Origin: a virus
IMG/VR virus record: IMGVR_UViG_3300023223_000538
Location: 1 to 23,770 of that record
DNA: 23,770 nt
Reading direction: 5' to 3' (one strand)
Below, one piece after another: positions 2,165 through 23,770 of this stretch; positions within the stretch are counted from its first letter, which is position 1; every line of letters begins with the position of its first letter. The translations under genes were made by a program, and so were the position numbers. The notes under the pieces were generated by a model. That model made no database searches and had not been told where the DNA came from. It saw only the letters and a list, made by a program, of their open reading frames with translations.

Positions 2165-2345
2165 AACTTCTCACGAATATTGGTGTGGCATTCGCCGCAA
2201 CGGTCCCATTTGCACCTGTCAACTCGAAGAACGTCTCGCTTGTTCGTGCTGCCCGACTCACACCACCTTCCGTTGCGACAAAAAAGTTGACGTCCGTTGC
2301 AATAAGTGCAATCATCTCTTGGGAGTAAAAGATGCCACAAATTAA
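2154..2345 (+). CDS. Cysteine-rich small protein, 63 aa
   Basis: ATG 2154 is chosen because AGG at 2146-2148 lies five bases before it; an upstream GTG at 2130 has no clear site. Nine of 63 residues are cysteine (11, 20, 22, 30, 32, 33, 41, 49, 52), enough for two metal sites, and CNKC at 49-52 resembles half a zinc knuckle. It overlaps the previous gene by 11 bases and the portal by 14. With the two genes upstream of terL and the 34-aa ribbon it makes four tiny cysteine-rich products around the terminase. No family is recognised. Confidence 0.65.
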   Translation: MESKTSHEYWCGIRRNGPICTCQLEERLACSCCPTHTTFRCDKKVDVRCNKCNHLLGVKDATN

Positions 2346-4590
2346 AACGCCTGAGAATCTCGAATCGCAAAAAGAAATTAAACCCGTTGATAGTCCAGAC
2401 CCTCTCAAAAAAATAGATCCAGGCGCCATCGCCAACTCCCTCTGGCGTGAAGTTCAGAAAGCCCAAACCAATCGTCAGCCTCAAATCGAAAACCACCAAC
2501 GCTGGTACGAAAAGCGCATGGGAATCCGTCCTCCAAAGAGTTTCCCATTTCCCGATTGCTCAAACATCCACATTCCTGTGACGGACAAAGGTATCAAGAA
2601 GATTGTTCCTCTTTACACTTCCCTGGTTGACACCCCAGGTAAGACTGCCATCTTTCGTCCCGCACCAAACAATCCACAATTGATCAAGTCAGTCGGTCGA
2701 GCTGAGAAGTTCTTCACTCATCTCGTTCAAGACGTGATGAATTCACATCCCGAGGCTCTCGGCATCTCGGAACAATTTGCTCTCGGTGCTGACAAGATGT
2801 GTGAGAAGGGCTACTTCATCGCAAAAACGGTTTGGTCCACCGTCTACCGACGCCGGTCTCGTATGCTCGACATCGACGCTCTCATTCAACAGTTCGCCGC
2901 TCAGAGACAAAACGGACGTCTCGCTCAACCCCAACAACAAATCACTCGTGACCAGATCACAGACGAACAGATCACCCAACAACTTGTTCTCTCATTCCGT
3001 CTCTCGGCCAACGACGCCGTCGATAAACGCGAAATCGACCGCTTCTTGAAAGCTTTCCGCGCCGGTAAGAACCCGATCGAAATCAAATTCTTTGAAACAC
3101 ATTACAACGCCCCGATGGTCATTGCCCGTGACCCTAAAGTCATCACTACACCACCCGACACAAACAACTTAGCCTCTTCTCGCTGGATCGACGACCAGTC
3201 CTCCGCTTCCTCAAACGATCTTCGGCTCGCTGCGAACTCCGGCAAGTACGATTCCATCGCCGTCGAGGAATATCTCGCTTTCGTCCGCGAGACTCAAAAG
3301 AAAGAACAGGGTGTTCAACAACCTCAGTCCACTCAAGCTCAGGCCACCGACGTCATCGACACCCTGAAACGCCAGCGCGAAGGCATCATGGACGTCACGA
3401 TCCAAGAAGACATCCACATCATTCACGAAACCGGCTTTTACTTTGATATCAACGATGACATGATTGAAGAGAAGTGCATCATCACGTACCCAGAAGATCG
3501 ACCCGATCTCGTTTTTCGTTTCATTCAACTCCCATACGACCATGGTGAATGGCCTTGGGTAGACTTTCCCTTCGAGTTGGCTGACGAACGCTACACCGCT
3601 CCGCGTGGAATCCCCGAGTTGCTTGACCATTTGCAAACTGTAATCACCTCTCGTCACAATTTCAAACTTGATTCCATGACGATTATGAACGCTCCCATGC
3701 TCACTGCGATCATCGGTGCTGCAAACCCAGGCAACATCCGTTATCGTCCAGGCGACACCATCCCAGTCACACGCCACGATGCAATCCAAGCTGTCACATG
3801 GGAACGAGGCGGAGTCGTGTTTGAGGAGCGTGAGGAAACCATCCTCCGCTCGATGGCAGACGAATACATCGGTCTAATCGATCAACAATTGCAGAGTCCG
3901 TTGAATCCTACACAGGAGGCTCGAACCAAAACCGAGATCCAAGCAATCCAATTTGAACGATCTCGCATTTTCTCTCACTCCGCCAAGATTTTTCTCAAAC
4001 GTCTTCGCAAAGTTTACGAGCAAATCTGGTCTCTCTGGATTCAATACGGTCCACCTGAGCTCGAAGTCTTCGCAACAGGCGAGCTCCTCCGAATCACCAA
4101 GCAAGAATTCGGTGGAAAATTCTACATCTTTCCCGCTGGCTCCCCCGAAACCGCTTCACAAGGCGGAGAACTCCAGGCTGCGATGGGCGATCTCCAGCTC
4201 TTTGGGAACGATCCCTCAATTAATCAAACCGAACTCCGCAACCGTTACTGGAGAATCCGTGATCCGCTCGCTTTTGATCTGATGGTGATCGAACCCGCCC
4301 AGCTCCAATCAAGTCAGGTCGAACGCCAAGTTCTCGAACTCACTCAAATGGAACTCGGTTTCGATGTTCCTCTCAAATCAGACGACGATGACGCTACTCA
4401 TCTTAAGGTCATTCAAAAGTGGCTCCAAGATATCCAGAGCGGAAAACGTCGAGTAAGTGAGGAAACTCTTCGTATGGGCTCGAGTCACGGAAAATTCCAC
4501 CAGGCTCGAATTCTCCAGCGCCAAGGCCAGAGTGGACAAGCAGAAAAAGCACGCACCGAAGGAAACCAGGCACGAGGACTTCCTGAATAA
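2332..4590 (+). CDS. Portal protein, 752 aa
   Basis: The portal is the dodecameric ring at one head vertex through which DNA enters and leaves; it binds the terminase during packaging and the adaptor afterwards. Evidence is its place directly after terL and ahead of scaffold and capsid genes, its size (about that of large P22-type portals), and the N-terminal stretch FPFPDCSNIHIPVTDKGIKK at 71-90, which reads like podovirus-type portals. Residues about 188-216 are glutamine-rich, and the C-terminus is a charged helix rich in Q, R and E, as in portal barrels. GGAG at 2322-2325 sits six bases before ATG 2332. I assign it by position and resemblance, not by a catalytic motif. Confidence 0.8.
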   Translation: MPQIKTPENLESQKEIKPVDSPDPLKKIDPGAIANSLWREVQKAQTNRQPQIENHQRWYEKRMGIRPPKSFPFPDCSNIHIPVTDKGIKKIVPLYTSLVDTPGKTAIFRPAPNNPQLIKSVGRAEKFFTHLVQDVMNSHPEALGISEQFALGADKMCEKGYFIAKTVWSTVYRRRSRMLDIDALIQQFAAQRQNGRLAQPQQQITRDQITDEQITQQLVLSFRLSANDAVDKREIDRFLKAFRAGKNPIEIKFFETHYNAPMVIARDPKVITTPPDTNNLASSRWIDDQSSASSNDLRLAANSGKYDSIAVEEYLAFVRETQKKEQGVQQPQSTQAQATDVIDTLKRQREGIMDVTIQEDIHIIHETGFYFDINDDMIEEKCIITYPEDRPDLVFRFIQLPYDHGEWPWVDFPFELADERYTAPRGIPELLDHLQTVITSRHNFKLDSMTIMNAPMLTAIIGAANPGNIRYRPGDTIPVTRHDAIQAVTWERGGVVFEEREETILRSMADEYIGLIDQQLQSPLNPTQEARTKTEIQAIQFERSRIFSHSAKIFLKRLRKVYEQIWSLWIQYGPPELEVFATGELLRITKQEFGGKFYIFPAGSPETASQGGELQAAMGDLQLFGNDPSINQTELRNRYWRIRDPLAFDLMVIEPAQLQSSQVERQVLELTQMELGFDVPLKSDDDDATHLKVIQKWLQDIQSGKRRVSEETLRMGSSHGKFHQARILQRQGQSGQAEKARTEGNQARGLPE

Positions 4591-7527: not shown

Positions 7528-8442
7528 ATGGCTGGTTTTAACGGAATAACGACCACATTCGACGATGGCAATATGTTGGAAGATGTGATGCGGACAGTGA
7601 TCCTGCTCACACCGACCGACAAACCATACACGACTGGTATGCCAAAAAATCGCGCAACCAACGTGATCCATCAATGGCCTGAAGACACCGCCACGGTTCG
7701 TCAAGATAACGCACAGCAAGAAGGTGCGGCGTTCTCGTTTGCTACGAAGACTCCTCCGAGTCGTCTAGTAAACTTGACACAAATCTTCGACAAGACCTGG
7801 GCTGTCTCCTCAACCGAGAGATGGGTACAGTCAGCGGGTATCAGTGACCGATTCCTTTACGAAAAGGGCAAAGCTCTTCTCGAAATTGGGACCGACATTG
7901 AACACGCTTATCTGCGCGGTTCACTTGCCAGTGGTAACAACACCACAGCACGTCGAATGGCCGGAGCGCTCAATTTCGTCACAACGAATGCAACTGCAGT
8001 CGTAACAGGAACTCGTCTCACCGAATCATTCTTTGTAGGGTTAGCAGAACTTACATTTGATGACGGTGGCCGACCCACTGAAGTGTACTGTGGTGCTTTC
8101 GTGAAGAGGATCATCACGGCTTTCACAGCCGGATCCACGAAGAACATCGCCTCTGAAGACAAACGTCTCGTAAACGCAGTAGATGTCTACGAGTCAGACT
8201 TCGGACTGATGAAAATCTTCATCTCACGTGACATGTTGACCGGCGCGAACGCGGGCTCCGTTCTAATGATTGACCCCTTGAAAACCAAGATGTCGATCGG
8301 TGAACAGCTCAACGAGGTTCCTGATGTTGCTCAAGATTCACACGCCACTAAGGGTGTGTATCGTTTTGAGGGCACGCAAGAGTTCCTCGGCGAACGCCAC
8401 AACTCCTTGGCCACAGGTCTAAGCGAGAAATTCCCTGCCTAA
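7528..8442 (+). CDS. Major capsid protein, SU10/DUF5309-like, 304 aa
   Basis: This is the coat protein forming the icosahedral shell, expected to have the HK97 fold. The N-terminal pattern (TTTFDDGNMLEDV, then LLTPTDKPY at 27-34, then NVIHQWPEDT at 45-54) is that of the SU10-type major capsid family formerly DUF5309, in which the phrase 'sPtdTPf...' is followed by 'H.W..DtL'. The length matches that family. There is no sign of a fused protease or cleavable delta domain, which agrees with a separate scaffold upstream. TAGGA at 7514-7518 precedes ATG 7528. A likely terminator follows at 8471-8502, as often seen after a highly expressed coat gene. Confidence 0.87.
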   Translation: MAGFNGITTTFDDGNMLEDVMRTVILLTPTDKPYTTGMPKNRATNVIHQWPEDTATVRQDNAQQEGAAFSFATKTPPSRLVNLTQIFDKTWAVSSTERWVQSAGISDRFLYEKGKALLEIGTDIEHAYLRGSLASGNNTTARRMAGALNFVTTNATAVVTGTRLTESFFVGLAELTFDDGGRPTEVYCGAFVKRIITAFTAGSTKNIASEDKRLVNAVDVYESDFGLMKIFISRDMLTGANAGSVLMIDPLKTKMSIGEQLNEVPDVAQDSHATKGVYRFEGTQEFLGERHNSLATGLSEKFPA

Positions 8443-8525: not shown

Positions 8526-8717
8526 ATGCCAGAAGAAGTTGGATATGGAGCAGGGCAGAGCGTAACAGACGCAGCCACCTCAGTAGCCCGAACTCGTGAG
8601 GGTGATAAGACAAGCACGTTCAACCCTACCACACGTTCCGGCGCACAAAAGGGAGATGGTTCCAGTGGCGCGAGTGTCAAACAATCGGCAACGTCGGTTG
8701 AGAAGAAAGATAGCTAA
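8526..8717 (+). CDS. Unknown small low-complexity protein, 63 aa
   Basis: AAAGGAGGT at 8510-8518, seven bases before ATG 8526, is the best Shine-Dalgarno sequence in the window and suggests high expression. The product is rich in S, T, G, A and D/K with almost no large hydrophobic residues, so it is probably disordered. A strongly translated small protein directly after the coat gene could be a minor head or decoration component, but it lacks the compact fold of known decoration proteins. No family is recognised. Confidence 0.65.
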   Translation: MPEEVGYGAGQSVTDAATSVARTREGDKTSTFNPTTRSGAQKGDGSSGASVKQSATSVEKKDS

Positions 8718-8756
8718 CCCTTACCGATAACTAAAATAAAGAGGAGACTCCTACTT

Positions 8757-9284: not shown

Positions 9285-9487
9285 AGAAAGCCTCGTGGCC
9301 TTCAGTCGAGATATATGCTCAAGAGATGGAACTCGCCAAAAAAGAGATGGAGAAGCTCATCTCTGGCGCTGTGGAGAACAAGGCAATGAACTTGTCATCA
9401 TACTTGCCCTACAACTTGGAATTTATCCGCGAATTTGAAACTGACCACGGAACATTTAATCTATACGCAAAGGTGTCGCCGAAATGA
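9281..9487 (+). CDS. Unknown small protein, 68 aa
   Basis: Coupled by ATGA overlaps to both neighbours, with AGGGAG at 9270-9275 just upstream. The first half is an amphipathic charged helix (QEMELAKKEMEKLISGA) and the rest is short and aromatic. It could be an accessory to the glycosyltransferase that follows, but only the coupling suggests this. Confidence 0.65.
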   Translation: MKKASWPSVEIYAQEMELAKKEMEKLISGAVENKAMNLSSYLPYNLEFIREFETDHGTFNLYAKVSPK

Positions 9488-11916
9488 CCCAAAAACTCAC
9501 TCTTGCCTTCATTTGCAAAGACGAAGAAAATCTCCTCGACCAAATGCTCACCTCGATCTCCCCCCACGTCGACGAAATCGTCTGTGGCTGGACGGGCACA
9601 AATCCGAAGACAGAAGAGATCCTGAAGAAGCATGGTGTCATCTACAAAGACATCTCCCAGCAAAAAGATTGCTGGATCACGATTGACCCAGCTCTGCGCG
9701 TGAAAATGAAACAAATCGATCCTGATTTCGACCTCTCTAAAATCCCAGACCGCCTTCCTCATTTCTCCCTCCTCCGAAAAGAGTCCTTCGCTCTCGCGAC
9801 CAACGAACTCGTGATGTGGCTCGACTCAGACGACACGATCGTTCATGGCAAGAAAATTAAAGCTCTCCTCACTCACTTCGACAACCCAAAATGCGGCGCG
9901 CTTTGGATCCCCTACTTGTACGATTTCGACGAAGAAGGACGCTGCACACTTCGCCTGTGGAGAGAGCGCATAGTTAAAAAGTCATACAGCAACTGGGTCG
10001 GTGCCATCCATGAATCTCTCCTTGCTAAGACCGAATTCTCAACAATCATCTCAGACGACTGTTTTGTTAAGCATCATCCTTTGAAAGACCGGATAATAGA
10101 TTCTTCTTTCCGAAATCTTTCAATCTCACTTGCCCAATACGCTCGAGAAGTCATCCTGGCCGCCATTGACGCCAAAACCGTATACGATCTCGCCCGCTCC
10201 TATGAAGCCGTCGGGCGTTTCGAGAAAGCCCTCGACTTTTTTGATAAATACCTCGAACTCTCCGGCTGGAACGACGAGATGTACAACGCTCTTCTCCGCC
10301 AAGCCGAAATCTATCTCAAATTCTCGCAGTACGAGGTCGCAACCGACAAACTCTTCCGCTGCTTGAAAATAGACCCATTCCGCAAAGAAGCCTATTTCAA
10401 ACTCTCTCTTGTCTACTTCAAACAGGAACAATGGGAACACGTCATTTACTACACCAATCTTGCATTCAAGCTCCGAGGTAAGGCCACGATTATGCCGCAG
10501 AATCCGGAGGAGTTGACTGGTAAACCTCTCCTCCCTCTCGCCTCTGCTCTCTTCAACATCGGCAAATTCAAAGAAGCCTCCGTGATCGCCATGAAAGCCC
10601 ATGAATTCTACCCCGAGAACGAGTGGCTCAAACACGCTCTCGAAACCTGGCCTGACATCGCCAAACGATTTGATAAGCGTCAGAACTTAATTGATGCTTG
10701 CAAGGAAATAAAGAACAAACACGGCGAAGACTCCAAACAAATGAAGAAATTCGCCAAAAAACTTCCCGAATCCTTCCACAAAGACCCGTTCTTCATCAGC
10801 ATGATCCACAAGTACGTCAAGAAACCATCTTACTCCTCCGACCCAACCATTATTTTCTACTGCGGCTCCGCTTACGAATATTGGGATCCGCGCTCGATCG
10901 AGAAAGGCGTCGGTGGTTCTGAGGAAGCCACAATTCACCTAGCTAAGCGCTTGGTTGGCCTGGGTTGGAAAGTCCGGATTTACAACAACTGCATGTTTGA
11001 ACAAGACTACGAAGGTGTCCTCTACCGTCCCTTTGACCAATATAACCGAGAAACCGAACGCTGCGACATCTTCGTTGCTTGGCGCCATAACCAGTACGCC
11101 ACCTTTGCCCCAAAAGGCGCAAAAAAGATCGTCTGGCTCCACGACGTCCAACGTCCTGAACACTGGGACGCTAACCGAACCAAAACCATCGACTTGATCA
11201 TTCCTCTCAGTCGCTGGCACCGCACAAATCTAAAGGAGATCCCTGATGAGTTATTCTACATTTCCAGAAATGGTATCGACCCTTCGCAGTTTATCGGAAG
11301 ACATTCGAGGGATGCAAAACGTCTCATATATGCTTCAAGCCCTGATCGAGGCCTTGACACACTGCTCGAAATGTGGCCGGCGATTAGAAAGCGTGATCCT
11401 GATGCCGAACTGCATGTGTTCTACGGGTTCACGAAAACATTTGATGAAGTCCACAAAAATAACCAAAGGATGCGTGACTGGAAAGACTACGTCCTCGGGC
11501 TTCTTAAACAGACTAATGTCTATTACCACGGTCGGGTCGACCACCAAACTCTCGCGCAAGAGTTCCAAAAGTCGGCGATCTGGATCTACCCGACGAACTT
11601 CACGGAGATATCATGCATCACGGCGATGAAGGCTCAAGCTGCCGGTACGATCCCAATATGTACCACCGTTGCAGCTCTCAACGAGACCGTTCAACACGGA
11701 TTCAAAATCTCTGGTCCAGGTGGCGCTGAAGACGAACGTACCCAAAAAACCTTTGTCAACGTCGTCTGTAGACTCATGGTAGACGTTAAGAGCCAAGAAA
11801 AAATACGCAAGGACATGGTCCCTTGGGCACTTCATTACTTCTCCTGGGACACCGTCGCCCAAGAATGGTCCGTTAGATTCAAGGAACTCTTGAATGGCTC
11901 CTCTCGAACAACTTAG
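9484..11916 (+). CDS. Fused glycosyltransferase: GT2 domain, TPR repeats, GT4-like domain, 810 aa
   Basis: Three parts can be seen. Residues about 1-215 form a GT2 (GT-A fold) domain: opening LAFICKDEENLLDQML, the metal/nucleotide motif WLDSDD at 112-117, and GAIHES at 173-178, typical of GT2 enzymes linked to TPRs. Residues about 231-385 hold roughly four TPR-like helical pairs (for example DLARSYEAVGRFEKALDFFD). Residues about 453-805 form a GT-B, GT4-like domain: glycine loop VGGSEEAT at 476-483, SPDRGLD at 619-625, and the sugar-nucleotide segment FTEISCITAMKAQAAG at 706-721. GT2 plus TPR is the layout of SunS, which glycosylates a peptide, so a protein acceptor is plausible. The acceptor here is unknown. 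Two catalytic domains could add two sugars in succession. Confidence 0.87.
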   Translation: MTQKLTLAFICKDEENLLDQMLTSISPHVDEIVCGWTGTNPKTEEILKKHGVIYKDISQQKDCWITIDPALRVKMKQIDPDFDLSKIPDRLPHFSLLRKESFALATNELVMWLDSDDTIVHGKKIKALLTHFDNPKCGALWIPYLYDFDEEGRCTLRLWRERIVKKSYSNWVGAIHESLLAKTEFSTIISDDCFVKHHPLKDRIIDSSFRNLSISLAQYAREVILAAIDAKTVYDLARSYEAVGRFEKALDFFDKYLELSGWNDEMYNALLRQAEIYLKFSQYEVATDKLFRCLKIDPFRKEAYFKLSLVYFKQEQWEHVIYYTNLAFKLRGKATIMPQNPEELTGKPLLPLASALFNIGKFKEASVIAMKAHEFYPENEWLKHALETWPDIAKRFDKRQNLIDACKEIKNKHGEDSKQMKKFAKKLPESFHKDPFFISMIHKYVKKPSYSSDPTIIFYCGSAYEYWDPRSIEKGVGGSEEATIHLAKRLVGLGWKVRIYNNCMFEQDYEGVLYRPFDQYNRETERCDIFVAWRHNQYATFAPKGAKKIVWLHDVQRPEHWDANRTKTIDLIIPLSRWHRTNLKEIPDELFYISRNGIDPSQFIGRHSRDAKRLIYASSPDRGLDTLLEMWPAIRKRDPDAELHVFYGFTKTFDEVHKNNQRMRDWKDYVLGLLKQTNVYYHGRVDHQTLAQEFQKSAIWIYPTNFTEISCITAMKAQAAGTIPICTTVAALNETVQHGFKISGPGGAEDERTQKTFVNVVCRLMVDVKSQEKIRKDMVPWALHYFSWDTVAQEWSVRFKELLNGSSRTT

Positions 11917-18118: not shown

Positions 18119-18310
18119 ATGGACAAAAACTTCATGGACAAGTTTAACTTCATCTTTGGTGTGATCCAGACATGTATGCTCATGGTGGGGATTACCATCA
18201 TGTTGATTTTTATAGCTCATTTCTCATATTCCCTGGGAGTAATTGAATCTAAGATCAGTGTACTAGAAGAACAAAACCCAATAACAATCAAAGGAGATAA
18301 TCATGGCTAG
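18119..18310 (+). CDS. Single-span membrane protein, possible holin, 63 aa
   Basis: AGGAG at 18109-18113 is five bases before ATG 18119. After a short basic start (MDKNFMDKFN), residues about 11-41 are hydrophobic with no charge, enough for one membrane span, followed by a 22-residue mostly acidic tail. Lysines before the span predict an N-in, C-out orientation. Size and shape fit a small holin or holin-like protein, but similar single-span proteins have other roles, and no endolysin is visible in the window. The tiny basic peptide at 18303 overlaps its last eight bases. Confidence 0.65.
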   Translation: MDKNFMDKFNFIFGVIQTCMLMVGITIMLIFIAHFSYSLGVIESKISVLEEQNPITIKGDNHG

Positions 18311-18374
18311 AAGAAGAAAGAAACTTGTTCGAAGGGGTAGGAAGAAGTTGGTTAAGAGAGGTCGGAAGAAATAA
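18303..18374 (+). CDS. Tiny arginine/lysine-rich peptide, 23 aa
   Basis: AAAGGAG at 18290-18296 is six bases before ATG 18303, one of the strongest sites in the window. The 23-residue product is almost wholly Arg and Lys with two near-copies of RRGRKKLV: RRRKKLV, RRGRKKLV, KRGRKK. No acidic residue is present and net charge is about +16. TAA at 18372-18374 abuts the next start. A 27-residue counterpart lies at 19184 after a second membrane protein. It could condense DNA like a protamine, disrupt membranes during lysis, or bind RNA. Function unknown. Confidence 0.6.
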   Translation: MARRRKKLVRRGRKKLVKRGRKK

Positions 18375-18602
18375 GTGCCTCAACTAACCTACACCATCGA
18401 CAACGCCAAGTTTCAGGCGTTTAAAGATGCTTTCCTCCGCGCTGATCCTGTCCCAACAGACGACGATGGCAATCCCGAAATGTCTGAGAACGACTGGATC
18501 AAGGCGGAAGGAAAGAAGTTCTTTCTCGAGAAGTACAAGAACGGTCTTTTACTTCTCGCAAAGGATACAGCTTCCGTTCCTGATAACAATATCATCACAT
18601 AA
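18375..18602 (+). CDS. Unknown small protein, 75 aa
   Basis: Starts with GTG 18375 immediately after the stop of the basic peptide. The product is soluble and partly acidic (VPTDDDGNPEMSENDW) with a helical C-terminal half (KKFFLEKYKNGLLLLAKD). No signal, motif or recognised family. Its codons return to the C-ending habit of the head genes. The upstream GGAAG is a modest ribosome site, so translation may depend on the gene before. Confidence 0.65.
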   Translation: MPQLTYTIDNAKFQAFKDAFLRADPVPTDDDGNPEMSENDWIKAEGKKFFLEKYKNGLLLLAKDTASVPDNNIIT

Positions 18603-18619
18603 ACTTGGATAGGTGAATC

Positions 18620-18946
18620 ATGAAGAGCTTTAAGTGGAAAATTGGTCTTGAGTTTGTCAAAGATGAGAAAGTCGACGTTGTCCAAATCGTAACCGATCAC
18701 ATCACAGCCGCCATGCGTTATGCTTACAAAGATGGCCTATCTTGGGACTGCCAAAGACGTTTGGTCAAAATCTTAGATAAGATCGAGACCGATAAGACTG
18801 GCACTGTCAAACTCGAAGATGCAGAATTCGACCTTTTGAAAGAATCATTCAAGCGTGCCAAGTTTCCACCCGCAACCACACGTGTCTTAAACAAAATTTA
18901 CGACGCCATTGAAGAAGCAGACACCAAGGCGAAGAAAGATGGATGA
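18620..18946 (+). CDS. Unknown helical protein, 108 aa
   Basis: AGGTGA at 18611-18616 is just before ATG 18620. The protein is highly charged and helical (for example TDHITAAMRYAYKDGLSWDC, then QRRLVKILDKIETDKTGTVK) and has one Cys. It looks like a compact helical domain. No family is recognised. Its stop lies inside the start region of the next gene (8-base overlap). It lies between the two membrane-protein/basic-peptide pairs, but nothing shows a lysis role. Confidence 0.65.
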   Translation: MKSFKWKIGLEFVKDEKVDVVQIVTDHITAAMRYAYKDGLSWDCQRRLVKILDKIETDKTGTVKLEDAEFDLLKESFKRAKFPPATTRVLNKIYDAIEEADTKAKKDG

Positions 18947-19181
18947 AGATTTCCGGTTGGAAAAGCTAAAGGTTCACGAGAGACTTGGCAAAGTCGAACA
19001 GTGGATGGAGACTGTTAACGATAGCATTGTAGGACTGACCACTAAAATCAACACCCAAAATGGCCGTATCGGTGATAACGAAAAGACAATCGCAGCGTTG
19101 AAAGGTGGTGCTATTACTCTTGCTTCAGTAGCAGGTATCATCTCGGTTGTGATAACTGTCTTATTTTTAGGAAGGGGGTAA
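18939..19181 (+). CDS. XhlA-like coiled-coil membrane protein, 80 aa
   Basis: The frame is open to an upstream ATG at 18909, but ATG 18939 gives the minimal overlap (8 bases) and a sensible N-terminus, MDEDFRLEKLKVHERL. Residues 5-55 form a coiled coil and 57-77 a hydrophobic span (GAITLASVAGIISVVITVLF) ending in GRG. About 80 residues with an N-terminal coiled coil and a C-terminal anchor is the layout of XhlA-type proteins, which act with a holin in some phages and prophages. The span faces a short C-terminus, unlike the first membrane protein. A second basic peptide follows two bases downstream. Confidence 0.68.
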   Translation: MDEDFRLEKLKVHERLGKVEQWMETVNDSIVGLTTKINTQNGRIGDNEKTIAALKGGAITLASVAGIISVVITVLFLGRG

Positions 19182-19183
19182 TT

Positions 19184-19267
19184 ATGCCGAGACACCCAGG
19201 AAAAACCAGCCACAAAAGCAGCCATAAAGGCAAACGCAAAAAAGGTCGAAAAGGGAAACGTCGATAG
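19184..19267 (+). CDS. Tiny basic peptide, 27 aa
   Basis: AGGGGG at 19173-19178, in the end of the XhlA-like gene, is five bases before ATG 19184. The product begins MPRHPGKTSHKSSHKG and ends in KRKKGRKGKRR, with no acidic residue. It is of the same type as the peptide at 18303 but not an obvious copy: it has histidine and serine and no LV. TAG is at 19265-19267. Its direct position after a single-span membrane gene repeats the arrangement of the first pair. Function unknown. Confidence 0.55.
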   Translation: MPRHPGKTSHKSSHKGKRKKGRKGKRR

Positions 19268-19284
19268 CTTAACAAGGAGATTCG

Positions 19285-19740
19285 ATGAGTTCATTCACTA
19301 AACCTCTCGATGTACGAAAGGTTATCACAAAAGTTCCCAAAAAATTTTTGTGGGTGGTATCATACAAACGCACCAAACAAAGATGGGTAACACTGCGAGA
19401 ATTCCGTTACTACGTTGGTAAGGAGAACAGTAATGATTACGTGGATGTACCAAAAGGCTTTGAAACTGATTTTGCATCTATTCCACGCGTTCTTTGGTCA
19501 ATAGCGCCGCCAGACGGTGTTTACACTCAAGCAGCCGTCTTGCACGACTATTTGTATCAGACTGGAAAATATCCTCGAAAGAAAGCTGATCGAATTTTTT
19601 TGGAGGCTATGGCAGTCTTAGGAGTAGCTCTCTGGAAACGTAGAGTGATCTATCGCGCAGTTCGGCTCTTTGGTTGGATGTTTTTTGAGCAGGAAAAACG
19701 AAGAAAGGGGCGTGCTCGATGTGGCAAAGATTTTCTCTGA
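19285..19740 (+). CDS. DUF1353 family protein, 151 aa
   Basis: The family motifs are all present: VPKGFETDFASIPR at 55-68, AVLHDYLY at 84-91, RKKADRIFLEAM at 98-109, and YRAVRLFGW at 123-131. DUF1353 proteins are common in phages, near tail or lysis genes, and their function is not established; the invariant Asp/His residues suggest a possible metal or hydrolytic site. AAGGAG at 19274-19279 is five bases before ATG 19285. The C-terminus is very basic. Its last 20 bases overlap the next gene. Confidence 0.87.
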   Translation: MSSFTKPLDVRKVITKVPKKFLWVVSYKRTKQRWVTLREFRYYVGKENSNDYVDVPKGFETDFASIPRVLWSIAPPDGVYTQAAVLHDYLYQTGKYPRKKADRIFLEAMAVLGVALWKRRVIYRAVRLFGWMFFEQEKRRKGRARCGKDFL

Positions 19741-20710
19741 GATAGTTACCGAAGTCGGACGAAAGATTCAGAAGACAGACACTGCCTACAAAACCAAGAT
19801 CAAAGACTTTTGTAACACTCGCTATGAACAACTCTACGAACGCAAATTTTGGGATGATCTCTTCCGTGAAGTCTCCGTCGTTTCTGTCAGCGGTCAAAAC
19901 TTCCTCGTCCTCCCGAAGAACGTCGAGCACGTTCTCTACATTTCAGACCTTGCCAATGATATTCTCGTTCGTCGGGTTGGTGTCCAGAACTTCCAGAAAA
20001 AATATCTCAGTACTTTAGACAGCCAGGGCAACATTTTTAACTACACCGACTTTGGTTACTCTCCCGTCCTGGTTCGAGTCAATGCCGCAGACACAATTGA
20101 GGTTGTCTCAGACAACGCTGCGGACATCACTCAGAAGGTCTACATCCGTGGCTTTGACACAAACGAGATCGAGCTCGACGAATCAATTGCTTTGAATGGT
20201 ACCACTCCAGTCCCAGGCAACAATACCATCACAGTATTTTCGATCACCAATCCACGGACCGGCTTGATCATGGTCTCCAAAGATGCAGACACCACCGGCG
20301 TGATCTCTGTTCGCGAGACCACCTCAAATCTTGTTCTTGTCCGTCTCGGCCCGCGTGAACGAGCTTCTCGCCACAAAGTTGTTCGCTTTCAGTTCACCCC
20401 AAACTCAGCCCAGACTATGTTTGTCGGCTACAAAGAACCTCTCCGTAAATTGATCAATGATGGAGATGTTACCCAGTGGAGCTGTGATGACTTAGTTGTC
20501 CAAGGCGCCTACATCGACACCCTGATCGAACAACGCCAATTCCAGCGCGCACAGCTTGAAGAAAATCGCTGGGAGAAACGAATCAATGCAAAAGTAAATC
20601 AAGAAGAACGAGACTCCGAAGCTAACGATCAAACCATGCCAGACATTCGTCTCACTCACATCGACCGACCTCGTACCTTCTCTGGTACTCAAAGGACAGG
20701 TACCTGCTAA
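19721..20710 (+). CDS. Head-tail adaptor-like protein, 329 aa
   Basis: I take GTG 19721 as start because AAAGGGG at 19704-19710 lies about ten bases before it and the protein then begins MAKIFSEIVTEVG; a GTG at 19712 or a TTG at 19670 are alternatives. The N-terminal helices followed by YERKFWDDLFREVSV and GQNFLVLPKNVEHVL are the pattern of podovirus adaptor (connector) proteins that dock under the portal. Residues about 124-199 carry an inserted beta domain with EVVSDNA and NGTTPV, also seen in the gene at 16321. A helical C-terminus returns (IDTLIEQRQFQRAQLEENRW). Its place directly before the nozzle-like gene supports the call. Confidence 0.68.
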   Translation: MAKIFSEIVTEVGRKIQKTDTAYKTKIKDFCNTRYEQLYERKFWDDLFREVSVVSVSGQNFLVLPKNVEHVLYISDLANDILVRRVGVQNFQKKYLSTLDSQGNIFNYTDFGYSPVLVRVNAADTIEVVSDNAADITQKVYIRGFDTNEIELDESIALNGTTPVPGNNTITVFSITNPRTGLIMVSKDADTTGVISVRETTSNLVLVRLGPRERASRHKVVRFQFTPNSAQTMFVGYKEPLRKLINDGDVTQWSCDDLVVQGAYIDTLIEQRQFQRAQLEENRWEKRINAKVNQEERDSEANDQTMPDIRLTHIDRPRTFSGTQRTGTC

Positions 20711-23700
20711 TGCCTGAACCACCTCTTCAACTCGATGAACAACCAAGCGTCATTGGTTCTCGCGGTCTCGAAGGTGGAGCAAATCAGTACCTCCCGATCA
20801 CCGATCTCCCAAACAATCAAGCACGCGAACTCGTCAACTGCGACGTCTCAGAACCAGGACTCACCAAGAAACGCTTAGGCTACGAACGTCAAGGCTCAGT
20901 CCCAACTGAGACCATCGACGCGAACACTATTTTGTTGATGCACTTCGACGGTTTTGAAGGAGATCGAACTTTCATAGACTCTTCTCCCTCTCGTCACTCA
21001 ATGGAAGGCGTCGGGGACGTAGAAACAAACGCAACACAATCCCAGTTTGGTGGACGCTCTGTTAAGCTCCCAGGAAACTCCTTCGACGTGGTCCGTTCAA
21101 CCACAGACTATGATACTTGGCAACTTGGTGGAGGATCGGGTGGTTCTGCCGCTTTCGACGGAACAGGCGATTATCTAACAATTCCAGATTCAGCGGACTG
21201 GCAATTAGGAGGGGGCACAGGAAATTTTACGATTGATTTTTGGGTGAGATTCACTTCACTACCATCTACTGTTAGACTTATATCACAATATCCAGTACCT
21301 ACCCTAGAAAATTGGAGTATTCATAGATCAGGTACAAATCTTACATTTATTGTACAAGATGGCAGTACTCTGATAGCTTTAGATGCACCATTTACTCCTA
21401 CTTTAGGTGTTTGGAATCATATAGCACTAATAAGAGGTTGGAATGGAAATGCCGATGATTTTGCTTTTACGCTTAATGGTACACAAATAGGATCAACCGT
21501 AACAAATTCACTTACCATACCAGATTTTGCAGCACGATTAGCTATAGGTGCCCGATTTATTGAATCAACAAGTGCTGTTGCCCACGAACATGACGGCTTT
21601 ATGGACGAAATACGAATATCTGATACCGCAAGATGGACAAGCAATTTTACACCACCAACGTCTGAGCATACTAACGATGCAAACACAGAATTACTCTTAC
21701 ACTTGAACACCGATTTTGTAGATAGTAGTGGAAGCACTCATATTGTAACAGCAAACGGAGACGCAGCAATTACTAACCTTGTCTTTTTCACATTTGACGA
21801 AAGTTCCACAACCGACTTTTCAGTTGATCTCTGGGTGAGGTTCGCAGATATTTCAGCAGACAGAACTTTTCTTTCTCAAGGGATCTCGGGAAATTTTTGG
21901 AGACTTTATTGGGATCAGGGAACTACTGAACTAGTTTTTGAGGTCATTGCTGGAAGTTCTACGATTATCGATATTAGAGAGACTTGGTCTCCAACTATCG
22001 ATACATGGTTTCACGTGGAACTCACCAGATCCTCAGATCAATATTTCATGTTTATCGACGGTACGCAGCTCGGCACAGAAGACACCAATGTCGACGCAGT
22101 CCCAAATTTCAACGCTCGCTTGTTCATCGGCGGTCTCTCTCTCGGCACGACAAACGAACTCACAAATTCGATGCTTCTTCTCCACGGAGACGGAGCAGAC
22201 GCCTCGACTGACATCATCGATTCTTCTACTGACGGAGACGCTTCACCACACGAAATGACCGCAGTTGGAAACGCCCAGATCGATACAGAACAATCCCGTT
22301 TCGGTGGTGCTGCAGTCCTCTTCGATGGCACAGGCGATTACGTCCGCGCAAATGACTCAGACGATTGGAATCTTACAGCAAATTTAACGATCGATTTCTG
22401 GGTACGCTTTGACTCAGTCGCAGCCGACCGCGCTTTCATCTCCCAGTTCGTCGATGCAAACAATCAATGGTTCCTGCGCTGGGATCAAACAACGAACCAA
22501 CTTGAATATGTCGTAACCGATGCCAGTACCATCACAATTGATATCAAGAATCCTTGGTCTCCAGAAGTCAACGTGTGGTTCCATGTAGCATTCACACGAT
22601 CAACTGATGATTACCGGATGTTTATAAGCGGCAAACAAATTGGCACAACTCAGACAGATTCCTCAACTCCACCAAACTTGGGAGCCCAGCTCCACGTTGG
22701 GATCATAAACGGCACCGACGACCCAATGTCTGGTTGGTTAGACGAGTTCCGCGTTCTCAAAGGAACTGCAGCCTTCACCGCAAACTTTGAGCCAAACGAT
22801 AGAGCTTATTCTACCGAGGCCGATGCTGGAAGCTCAGACAATATGAACGGTTTCTTTGACGAGCTTCGGATCTCAGACACTGCGCGCCATGTCGCAAACT
22901 TCACCGTACCAACCGATCCATACTCATACACTGGAGCCTTGAGCGGTGGCGCCGAGTACCGTCCATTCGGTCAAAGCCCAATCCTCTACCGTGAGATCGG
23001 AGAGAACGGCGCAATCGAAAAATTGAATGCCGGAGACGCTGCTTGGTCACTCTCTAAGACCTCAATGATCCACCCAACTCAGAACGTAACCTTCAACCAG
23101 ATCCGAGAAGAACTCTATCGTTTAACCAAAGTAGACCCTGCATGGGTCAACAATGGTAAGACTTGGGTTGAGCAAGGGATCCAGAACACTTCGATCCCTC
23201 AAGGAGATATTTCTCTCTGGTTTATCCAAAGACACTTCATTGCCGGTAACATCAACAATCCGGATTTTCTTTTCTTCTCGAACGCAGGTCAACCGAAAAT
23301 ATTTGATCGAAGAGTCAATGCTTTCAAAGTGAGCGAAGGAGACAATTCCAAAATAACTGGTTTGGCATCATTTAGGGGATCTCGTGTTATCATCTTCAAA
23401 GAGAGATCAATCCATGAGTTGATTGTTACGTTAGGAATAGATCCTTTGAAAGATTGGTCACTACGACCTATTGATTTCAACATTGGAAGTGTCTGCCCGC
23501 CAGCTTTTACCTCTTCAAACCGAATCTTTTTTCTGTCTCGCGATGGTGTCCGTGAACTAATCGTCTCTCAGCAAGACACTTCCATTGCACGCCCTGAACC
23601 TCTCTCTAGAAATATCCCAGACTGGATCGACAATATCAACTGGGGAGACGTCCGCGCTGTCGCCAAGTCTCGCATGGCTGTCTTTGAGAACCGTCTCTGG

Positions 23701-23770
23701 ATTGCTGTCCCTTATCGTAACACTCAGAAACCAAGCTCAGTCTTCATCCTTGATCTCTTAACAGGTGCTT
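20710..23770 (+). CDS. Tail nozzle-like beta-propeller protein with LamG-like modules (partial, open at right edge)
   Basis: The gene starts in a TAATG overlap with the adaptor-like gene and stays open for 1,020 codons to the window end. Residues 1-70 (SRGLEGGANQYLPITDLPNN, then RELVNCDVSEPGLTKKRLGY) and 740-1020 (ITGLASFRGSRVIIFKERSI, then FFLSRDGVREL) look like a phage tail nozzle/stopper beta-propeller. Between them, about 74-737, lie three LamG-like (concanavalin A-type) beta-sandwich modules. Each has a TIDFWVRF or VDLWVRF strand, a W(F/N)H strand, and a closing DE(I/F/L)R(I/V) motif. The middle module is interrupted by the other two. LamG domains often bind glycans or proteins, so this may aid adsorption. 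The C-terminus is missing. Confidence 0.75.
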   Translation, partial: MPEPPLQLDEQPSVIGSRGLEGGANQYLPITDLPNNQARELVNCDVSEPGLTKKRLGYERQGSVPTETIDANTILLMHFDGFEGDRTFIDSSPSRHSMEGVGDVETNATQSQFGGRSVKLPGNSFDVVRSTTDYDTWQLGGGSGGSAAFDGTGDYLTIPDSADWQLGGGTGNFTIDFWVRFTSLPSTVRLISQYPVPTLENWSIHRSGTNLTFIVQDGSTLIALDAPFTPTLGVWNHIALIRGWNGNADDFAFTLNGTQIGSTVTNSLTIPDFAARLAIGARFIESTSAVAHEHDGFMDEIRISDTARWTSNFTPPTSEHTNDANTELLLHLNTDFVDSSGSTHIVTANGDAAITNLVFFTFDESSTTDFSVDLWVRFADISADRTFLSQGISGNFWRLYWDQGTTELVFEVIAGSSTIIDIRETWSPTIDTWFHVELTRSSDQYFMFIDGTQLGTEDTNVDAVPNFNARLFIGGLSLGTTNELTNSMLLLHGDGADASTDIIDSSTDGDASPHEMTAVGNAQIDTEQSRFGGAAVLFDGTGDYVRANDSDDWNLTANLTIDFWVRFDSVAADRAFISQFVDANNQWFLRWDQTTNQLEYVVTDASTITIDIKNPWSPEVNVWFHVAFTRSTDDYRMFISGKQIGTTQTDSSTPPNLGAQLHVGIINGTDDPMSGWLDEFRVLKGTAAFTANFEPNDRAYSTEADAGSSDNMNGFFDELRISDTARHVANFTVPTDPYSYTGALSGGAEYRPFGQSPILYREIGENGAIEKLNAGDAAWSLSKTSMIHPTQNVTFNQIREELYRLTKVDPAWVNNGKTWVEQGIQNTSIPQGDISLWFIQRHFIAGNINNPDFLFFSNAGQPKIFDRRVNAFKVSEGDNSKITGLASFRGSRVIIFKERSIHELIVTLGIDPLKDWSLRPIDFNIGSVCPPAFTSSNRIFFLSRDGVRELIVSQQDTSIARPEPLSRNIPDWIDNINWGDVRAVAKSRMAVFENRLWIAVPYRNTQKPSSVFILDLLTGA
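21118..21786 (+). repeat. Low-GC LamG module lying inside another LamG module
   Basis: The segment starts at the first TWQLGGG (21115-21138) and repeats as DWQLGGG at 21196-21216, then holds a complete LamG core through MDEIRISDTARW at 21601-21636 and a further domain start (TELLLHLN). Hand counts give 38% GC for 21241-21300 and 37% for 21421-21480, against 53% for 22141-22200 in the same gene. The codons ATA, AGA, CTA and GTA are frequent here and rare around it. Confidence 0.6.
22171..22839 (+). repeat. LamG module inserted before the last strand of the middle LamG module
   Basis: After ARLFIGGLSLGTTNELTNS a complete LamG unit begins at MLLLHGDG (residue 488) and ends with LDEFRVLKGTAAFTANFEPN. 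Only then does a second closing motif appear, GFFDELRISDTARHVANF, at residues about 714-731, which fits as the missing last strand of the interrupted module. Its codon use is like that of the rest of the phage. Confidence 0.6.

Follow-up and report, generated by a model that had tools for sequence, protein, structure and literature searches.

The small-gene cluster and its cationic peptides

The window considered here, that is, the whole stretch of DNA that was analysed, is an entire IMG/VR record, namely a linear podovirus fragment with a length of 23,770 bp. Two very short open reading frames for strongly cationic peptides, each immediately behind a frame for a small membrane protein, are located in a cluster of small late genes between the glycosyltransferases and the tail genes. 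The features of the window are as follows:

655-2070, TerL (Pfam Terminase_6N)
2332-4590, portal
7528-8442, major capsid protein (PHROG 1328)
from 9484 on, glycosyltransferases
17.1-19.7 kb, block of small genes ahead of the tail protein
18119-18310, plus strand, 63-aa single-span membrane protein, holin- or i-spanin-like (TM residues 15-33, mean KD 2.42)
18290-18296, plus strand, Shine-Dalgarno (SD) of peptide 1, AAAGGAG, strong, 6-nt spacing before ATG
18303-18374, plus strand, peptide 1, MARRRKKLVRRGRKKLVKRGRKK, 23 aa, charge +15, overlapping the 63-aa gene by 8 nt
18375-18602, plus strand, 75-aa soluble protein whose GTG start directly adjoins the peptide 1 stop, no Pfam or PHROG match
18620-18946, plus strand, 108-aa helical soluble protein, no Pfam match and only a weak PHROG match (E 0.09)
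18939-19181, plus strand, 80-aa protein with a coiled coil and a C-terminal TM (59-77), XhlA-like layout
19169-19178, plus strand, SD-like purine-rich stretch AGGAAGGGGG of peptide 2, moderate only, 5-nt spacing
19184-19267, plus strand, peptide 2, MPRHPGKTSHKSSHKGKRKKGRKGKRR, 27 aa, charge +13, starting 2 nt past the stop of the 80-aa gene
19285-19740, plus strand, DUF1353 protein, predicted phospholipase A2-type (Pfam PF07087, 4.8e-31; H87/D88/D102)
19718-20710, plus strand, tail protein after the cluster of small genes, homologous to MW202743 17101-18036 (29% identity, 1e-35)
20710-23770, long open gp10-like protein, running to the window end

Peptide 1 consists of three basic repeats of 8 residues (ARRRKKLV/RRGRKKLV/KRGRKK), while peptide 2 is Lys/Ser/Gly-rich; hydrophobic residues make up 26% and 4% of them, respectively, and D or E residues number 0 in both, as the sequence-only reading had maintained. 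Its coordinates, frames and sequences, together with the 8-nt overlap and the 2-nt spacing, all proved correct on recheck; of the ribosome binding sites, which it had called good in both cases, that of peptide 1 is strong and that of peptide 2 moderate only. The 63-aa protein, probably N-in with a short C-terminal helix, had no Pfam or PHROG match. The peptides, like their membrane partners, are unrelated to each other in sequence, and an origin of one pair by duplication of the other was rejected accordingly. An antisense ORF at 18974-19294 was set aside as being antisense to two coding frames. Elsewhere in the window, at 8665-8730, a possible GTG-started basic ORF of 21 aa, VARVSNNRQRRLRRKIANPYR, comes after the capsid gene and overlaps the end of a 63-aa ORF there.

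Among annotated genomes the nearest is MW202743, a Manatee Spring podovirus (61% for the capsid, 32% for TerL and 29% for the tail protein), and the relatives in IMG/VR were gathered by capsid and labelled L043-L138. The glycosyltransferase region opens with an 810-aa protein (9484-11916) of GT2, TPR and GT1 domains, and comparable big glycosyltransferases also come after the capsid genes of relatives. The gp10-like protein contains three repeated, putatively LamG-like segments, each matching one segment of a protein of the locus L005, and its C-terminal part is homologous to the stabilisation protein of MW202743. The small-gene region gave no nucleotide match in the phage collection, no relative was found for the 80-aa protein in IMG/VR or phages nor for the 108-aa protein in phages, and the cluster is absent before the tail gene in the capsid relatives L042/L133, L134 and L137. 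The 80-aa protein does align at 38% over 42 aa with a protein of L005 that is encoded two small genes ahead of a DUF1353 gene. The scan of bacterial genomes by capsid alignment recovered no provirus relative and no host.

To assess the two frames against chance, a strict scan was applied (ATG start, SD of at least 4, 20-45 aa, K+R of at least 45%, no D/E), which returned from the window peptides 1 and 2 only, with 0 on the minus strand, while dinucleotide shuffles returned 0 in 150 for the whole window and 0 in 3000 for the region; over the 1.37 Mb of collected sequence, 12/12 matches lay on the coding strand, outside genes. With the peptides counted as genes, the intergenic distances at 16.3-23.8 kb are 1, 0, -1, 13, -8, 0, 17, -8, 2, 17, -23 and -1 nt, whereas leaving the peptides out opens two gaps, of 64 and 103 nt, much bigger than all the others there. 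The peptides thus occupy the only two sizeable gaps of a tightly packed late operon, and the claim that the arrangement is not due to chance is upheld by this packing and by the shuffles. Among the conserved residues of the peptide 1 repeats, synonymous codon differences occur at 4/6 between repeats 1 and 2 and at 3/5 between repeats 2 and 3, the pattern that selection on the protein would produce, provided that the repeats arose by duplication. The probability that these are fortuitous frames in purine-rich intergenic DNA, rather than genes, is accordingly judged very slight: the purine content of 71-77% and the want of an orthologue for either peptide in our searches would agree with it, as would the own-base shuffles in the case of peptide 2, the composition of which was attained by 0.8% of them (0/20000 for peptide 1), so that peptide 2 is the weaker on composition alone, but the SD sites, the exact packing and the synonymous differences, with no such ORF in any window shuffle, speak against it. 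The evidence that the peptide ORFs are genuine genes is strong for peptide 1 and good for peptide 2.

Cationic mini-ORFs in pelagiphages and capsid relatives

Ten pelagiphage endolysin regions were fetched, with the M15 endolysin of HTVC106P as bait, and searched for SD-preceded ORFs of 20-45 aa with K+R of at least 35% and no acidic residue. Such polycationic mini-ORFs were present in 9/10 regions, amounting to 19 on the coding strand and 0 antisense, at 0.17 expected from shuffles of the same AT-rich sequences. Five of the phages carry mini-genes behind the lysis genes that are unannotated in GenBank:

L160 3861-3965, mini-gene of HTVC010P
L158 3853-3969, mini-gene of HTVC204P
L159 3848-3961, mini-gene of HTVC100P
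L161 3501-3569, mini-gene of HTVC202P
L162 3493-3668, mini-genes of HTVC026P

In HTVC010P, HTVC204P and HTVC100P the mini-ORF abuts, at -4, +1 and -1 nt, the gene of a 122-125-aa TM protein behind the endolysin, which by its position and TM segment appears to be holin-like; in HTVC202P it begins +11 nt after the endolysin gene itself, and in HTVC026P two consecutive mini-ORFs follow the endolysin from +9 nt. The peptides of HTVC010P, HTVC204P, HTVC100P and Greip differ pairwise with dN of 0.04-0.33 and dS of 0.4-2.1, and the resulting dN/dS of about 0.05-0.24 clearly shows purifying selection. The Greip homologue of the HTVC010P-type peptide, gp51, is labelled HNH endonuclease-like. As most of the pelagiphage mini-ORFs are unannotated, the earlier suspicion that such peptides are too small for most gene callers is supported. 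HTVC010P and several others also have, upstream of the endolysin, a protein of XhlA layout, the Pfam XhlA match of the HTVC010P protein being weak.

The window peptides share with the pelagiphage peptides a length of 20-45 aa, a K+R content of at least 35%, the lack of acidic residues, an SD site and an intergenic space of their own. As to position, the pelagiphage ones follow holin-like or endolysin genes and the window peptides sit behind membrane proteins whose holin status is putative. The pelagiphage peptides are rich mostly in Lys, not Arg, and their host is known (Pelagibacter). Beyond an MPxHxG start, common to peptide 2 and the HTVC202P and HTVC026P peptides, they are unalignable with the window peptides, and peptide 1 shares no motif with them. 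The combination of H4 and G6 was found in 5/1758 MP-starting ORFs, 3 of the 5 being these same peptides; the sharing is suggestive only, since the motif was picked out post hoc. The peptide 1 repeat, searched as an exact pattern, was not present in IMG/VR, and tblastn with peptide 1 and with an HTVC-type peptide gave no matches, for which low-complexity masking is probably responsible. In the literature search, which covered few subscription journals, polycationic micro-peptides in pelagiphage lysis regions were not described.

The trait is lineage-restricted, because the M15-endolysin cassettes taken as a negative control, those of Caulobacter phage GB2A, of DSL-LC04, of MW202701 and of Stenotrophomonas phage BUCT548, contain no such ORFs (0/4), by which a general association with M15 endolysins is ruled out. 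Cationic mini-ORFs are also met at other places of the late region in the relatives:

L043 2899-2994, MGRRIKARPKKRLSIGAHIRRIKKLKRKRII, between TerL and portal
L131 1641-1700, MAKKKRKKKKSKGKSGYKA, between portal and scaffold, in TAATG overlap with the preceding gene
L044 8110-8157, MKKRKPKKGQKPRGY, between portal and scaffold, packed stop-to-start
L146 9275-9337, minus strand, MYMKKKKKKKAKKKSKKKKY, 20 aa, HTVC106P, unannotated, strong SD

The last of these lies within a series of small basic genes, gp26 and gp28-gp30, that come after the M15 endolysin. In the HTVC106P-type group two to three cationic mini-ORFs come after the capsid gene, some of them belonging to PHROG 33179 or 17967; like the window peptides, these families are tiny, lysine-rich, encoded by late genes and found in podoviruses sharing the capsid family, whereas their genes either follow that of the capsid or belong to the small-gene cluster, and the window peptides give no match to them. 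Among these HTVC106P-type podoviruses, L088-L117 show after the capsid gene the conserved basic peptides MPMVGKKKFxYTKKG... and MxGKxxLTAKQRTLPKKLQAKIVKxKMKKKRK. A 17-aa match in L022 was rejected as lying out of frame inside another ORF. Thus, the idea of the membrane protein and peptide as a fixed unit is sustained in part, in that the holin-peptide abutment recurs in HTVC010P, HTVC204P and HTVC100P, but it does not extend to the capsid relatives with mini-ORFs by TerL, portal and capsid genes, nor to the four M15-endolysin cassettes without any.

The DUF1353 neighbour and the lysis reading

The gene next to peptide 2 encodes a DUF1353 protein, which is predicted from its sequence to be phospholipase A2-type. 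The DUF1353 protein TtaP was experimentally shown in 2024 to possess phospholipase A2 activity, with the dyad H70/D85, plus D71 (PMC11525133). In the window protein these positions correspond to H87, D88 and D102, which show no variation across 26 phage DUF1353 sequences. A profile of the 26 sequences gave five weak matches against PDB, the first and fifth of which were phospholipases A2 (8k1w, E 0.22; 1faz/1lwb, E 0.82) and the remaining ones a sulfotransferase, and Foldseek on the DUF1353 model (pLDDT 86, good) recovered no PLA2 fold. The label of the family in PHROGs is tail assembly chaperone; the genes so named in MW202701 and MW202710 were discarded from the comparison, being Phage_tail_APC and not DUF1353. 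Of the 119 DUF1353 neighbours from 29 IMG/VR loci, about a dozen match peptidoglycan hydrolases (M15, GH108, amidase, NlpC/P60, SLT, lysozyme and hydrolase_2), and DUF1353 is therefore often near lysis genes. No comparable mini-ORF was found in 36 DUF1353 loci, which rules out a general association of the mini-ORFs with DUF1353, and in L005, where an XhlA-like protein and DUF1353 are arranged likewise, a strongly cationic peptide is missing.

The reading preferred here, to which we give a probability of about 0.4, is that the peptides are genuine genes of a lysis-type module and, together with the phospholipase, would breach the outer membrane without a spanin. The module would comprise the TM protein, peptide 1, the two small soluble proteins, the XhlA-like protein, peptide 2 and the DUF1353 phospholipase A2. 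The peptides and membrane proteins would be produced in the cytoplasm; upon permeabilisation of the inner membrane by the membrane proteins, the peptides and phospholipase could enter the periplasm, where the polycations would bind anionic lipids or LPS and displace divalent cations and the phospholipase would cleave phospholipids, so that the outer membrane, if the host has one, would yield without a spanin. We infer in this scheme that the peptides take part in lysis, that they are released when the holin triggers, that a membrane is their target and that they cooperate with the phospholipase. Outer membranes of Gram-negative bacteria are made permeable by polycations that are not amphipathic, such as protamine and polylysine. 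The link with lysis that the sequence-only reading had proposed is favoured by the pelagiphage mini-ORFs behind endolysin and holin-like genes, with one family under purifying selection, and by the position of the window pair beside DUF1353. Against the preferred reading stand the hydrophilicity of the peptides, too great for lone bilayer insertion, the want of a recognised endolysin in the window, the mini-ORFs beside TerL, portal and capsid genes of relatives, the four M15-endolysin cassettes and L005 without such peptides, the Foldseek result and the PHROGs label of DUF1353. It is rather doubtful, and proposed as a tentative generalisation, that a spanin-independent module exists in which a DUF1353 phospholipase A2 acts with non-amphipathic polycationic micro-peptides, one or two in number, encoded directly behind holin-type genes; the pelagiphages would then use a parallel peptide solution.

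The same polycation composition, with hydrophobic residues almost absent, would suit protamine-like DNA-binding peptides that neutralise or condense the genome in packaging or inside the capsid. This function is rather unlikely, yet it is kept as the main rival because the relatives have cationic mini-ORFs beside packaging and capsid genes: in L043 between TerL and portal, in L044 and L131 between portal and scaffold, and in L088-L117 and HTVC106P after the capsid gene. Against it, the window peptides belong to a cluster of small genes that precedes the tail genes and is some 10 kb away from the capsid gene, one conserved pelagiphage family lies directly on a holin-like gene, and the literature search yielded no phage precedent. 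The overlap or 2-nt spacing with the membrane-protein genes, repeated with holin-like genes in three pelagiphages, would also be expected of peptides that assist or regulate the neighbouring membrane proteins (antiholin-like, governing topology or timing) and that would operate by charge and translational coupling and not at the outer membrane; such a role seems improbable, considering that two unrelated membrane proteins are accompanied by two unrelated peptides and that the HTVC202P and HTVC026P mini-ORFs come after the endolysin instead. The resemblance of peptide 1 to an arginine-rich motif and the downstream GTG start abutting its stop bring to mind a role in RNA binding, as arginine-rich-motif antiterminators or as peptides associated with the ribosome, or else as translated leaders that control the gene behind, but the genes belong to the late structural region, not to an early operon, and peptide 2 has its Lys/Ser/Gly-rich composition, which makes this function decidedly improbable.

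Returning to the lysis reading, polycationic peptides are probably a little-noticed part of the host envelope breakage in these phages. A recognisable spanin is missing from about 13% of the tailed phages that infect Gram-negative hosts (Kongari et al. 2018, as quoted in PMC12819732), and predicting disruptins from sequence is difficult. If the reading is true, polycationic micro-peptides, recognisable by position and composition, would be a testable candidate for the missing outer-membrane step, and the phage DUF1353 proteins, which PHROGs lists as tail assembly chaperones, would gain a lysis role. The class of micro-peptides includes at least one family under purifying selection and is mostly unannotated in the pelagiphages, which are among the most abundant phage groups.

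Comparison with known envelope-breaking systems

The phage DUF1353 and TtaP proteins have in common the Pfam family, the His/Asp dyad 15 residues apart and the adjacent Asp; they differ in that TtaP is part of a Salmonella toxin islet (PMC11525133), while the activity of the phage protein is predicted from sequence. No lipobox (o-spanin) ORF was found on the coding strand of the window, a fragment, and hence the spanin criterion of a lipobox outer-membrane lipoprotein has no counterpart there. The XhlA layout attributed to the 80-aa protein holds for the architecture, i.e., a coiled coil and then a C-terminal TM, encoded, as with XhlA/XhlB-type proteins, in a late small-gene cluster, but does not extend to a match with the Pfam XhlA model (PF10779), against which the XhlA of pCB2047-C scores 9.5e-12.

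The likeness of the peptides to the disruptin gp28 of Escherichia phage phiKT (JN882298, Holt et al. 2022), suggested by the sequence-only reading, was not borne out at sequence level. Both are small and positively charged. The gp28 gene has endolysin and holin genes for neighbours; the window peptides have membrane proteins and DUF1353, with no endolysin recognised in the 23.8-kb fragment. The gp28 protein, as retrieved and translated, has 56 aa, a charge of +7, 45% hydrophobic residues and acidic residues, and is amphipathic, its hydrophobic moment being significant against permutations (0.007), unlike the moments of the window peptides (0.13 and 0.07, not significant). Since gp28 is amphipathic with acidic residues and the window peptides are extremely hydrophilic, the latter are not classed as disruptins; they most likely act, however, at the same step as disruptins, namely at the outer membrane.
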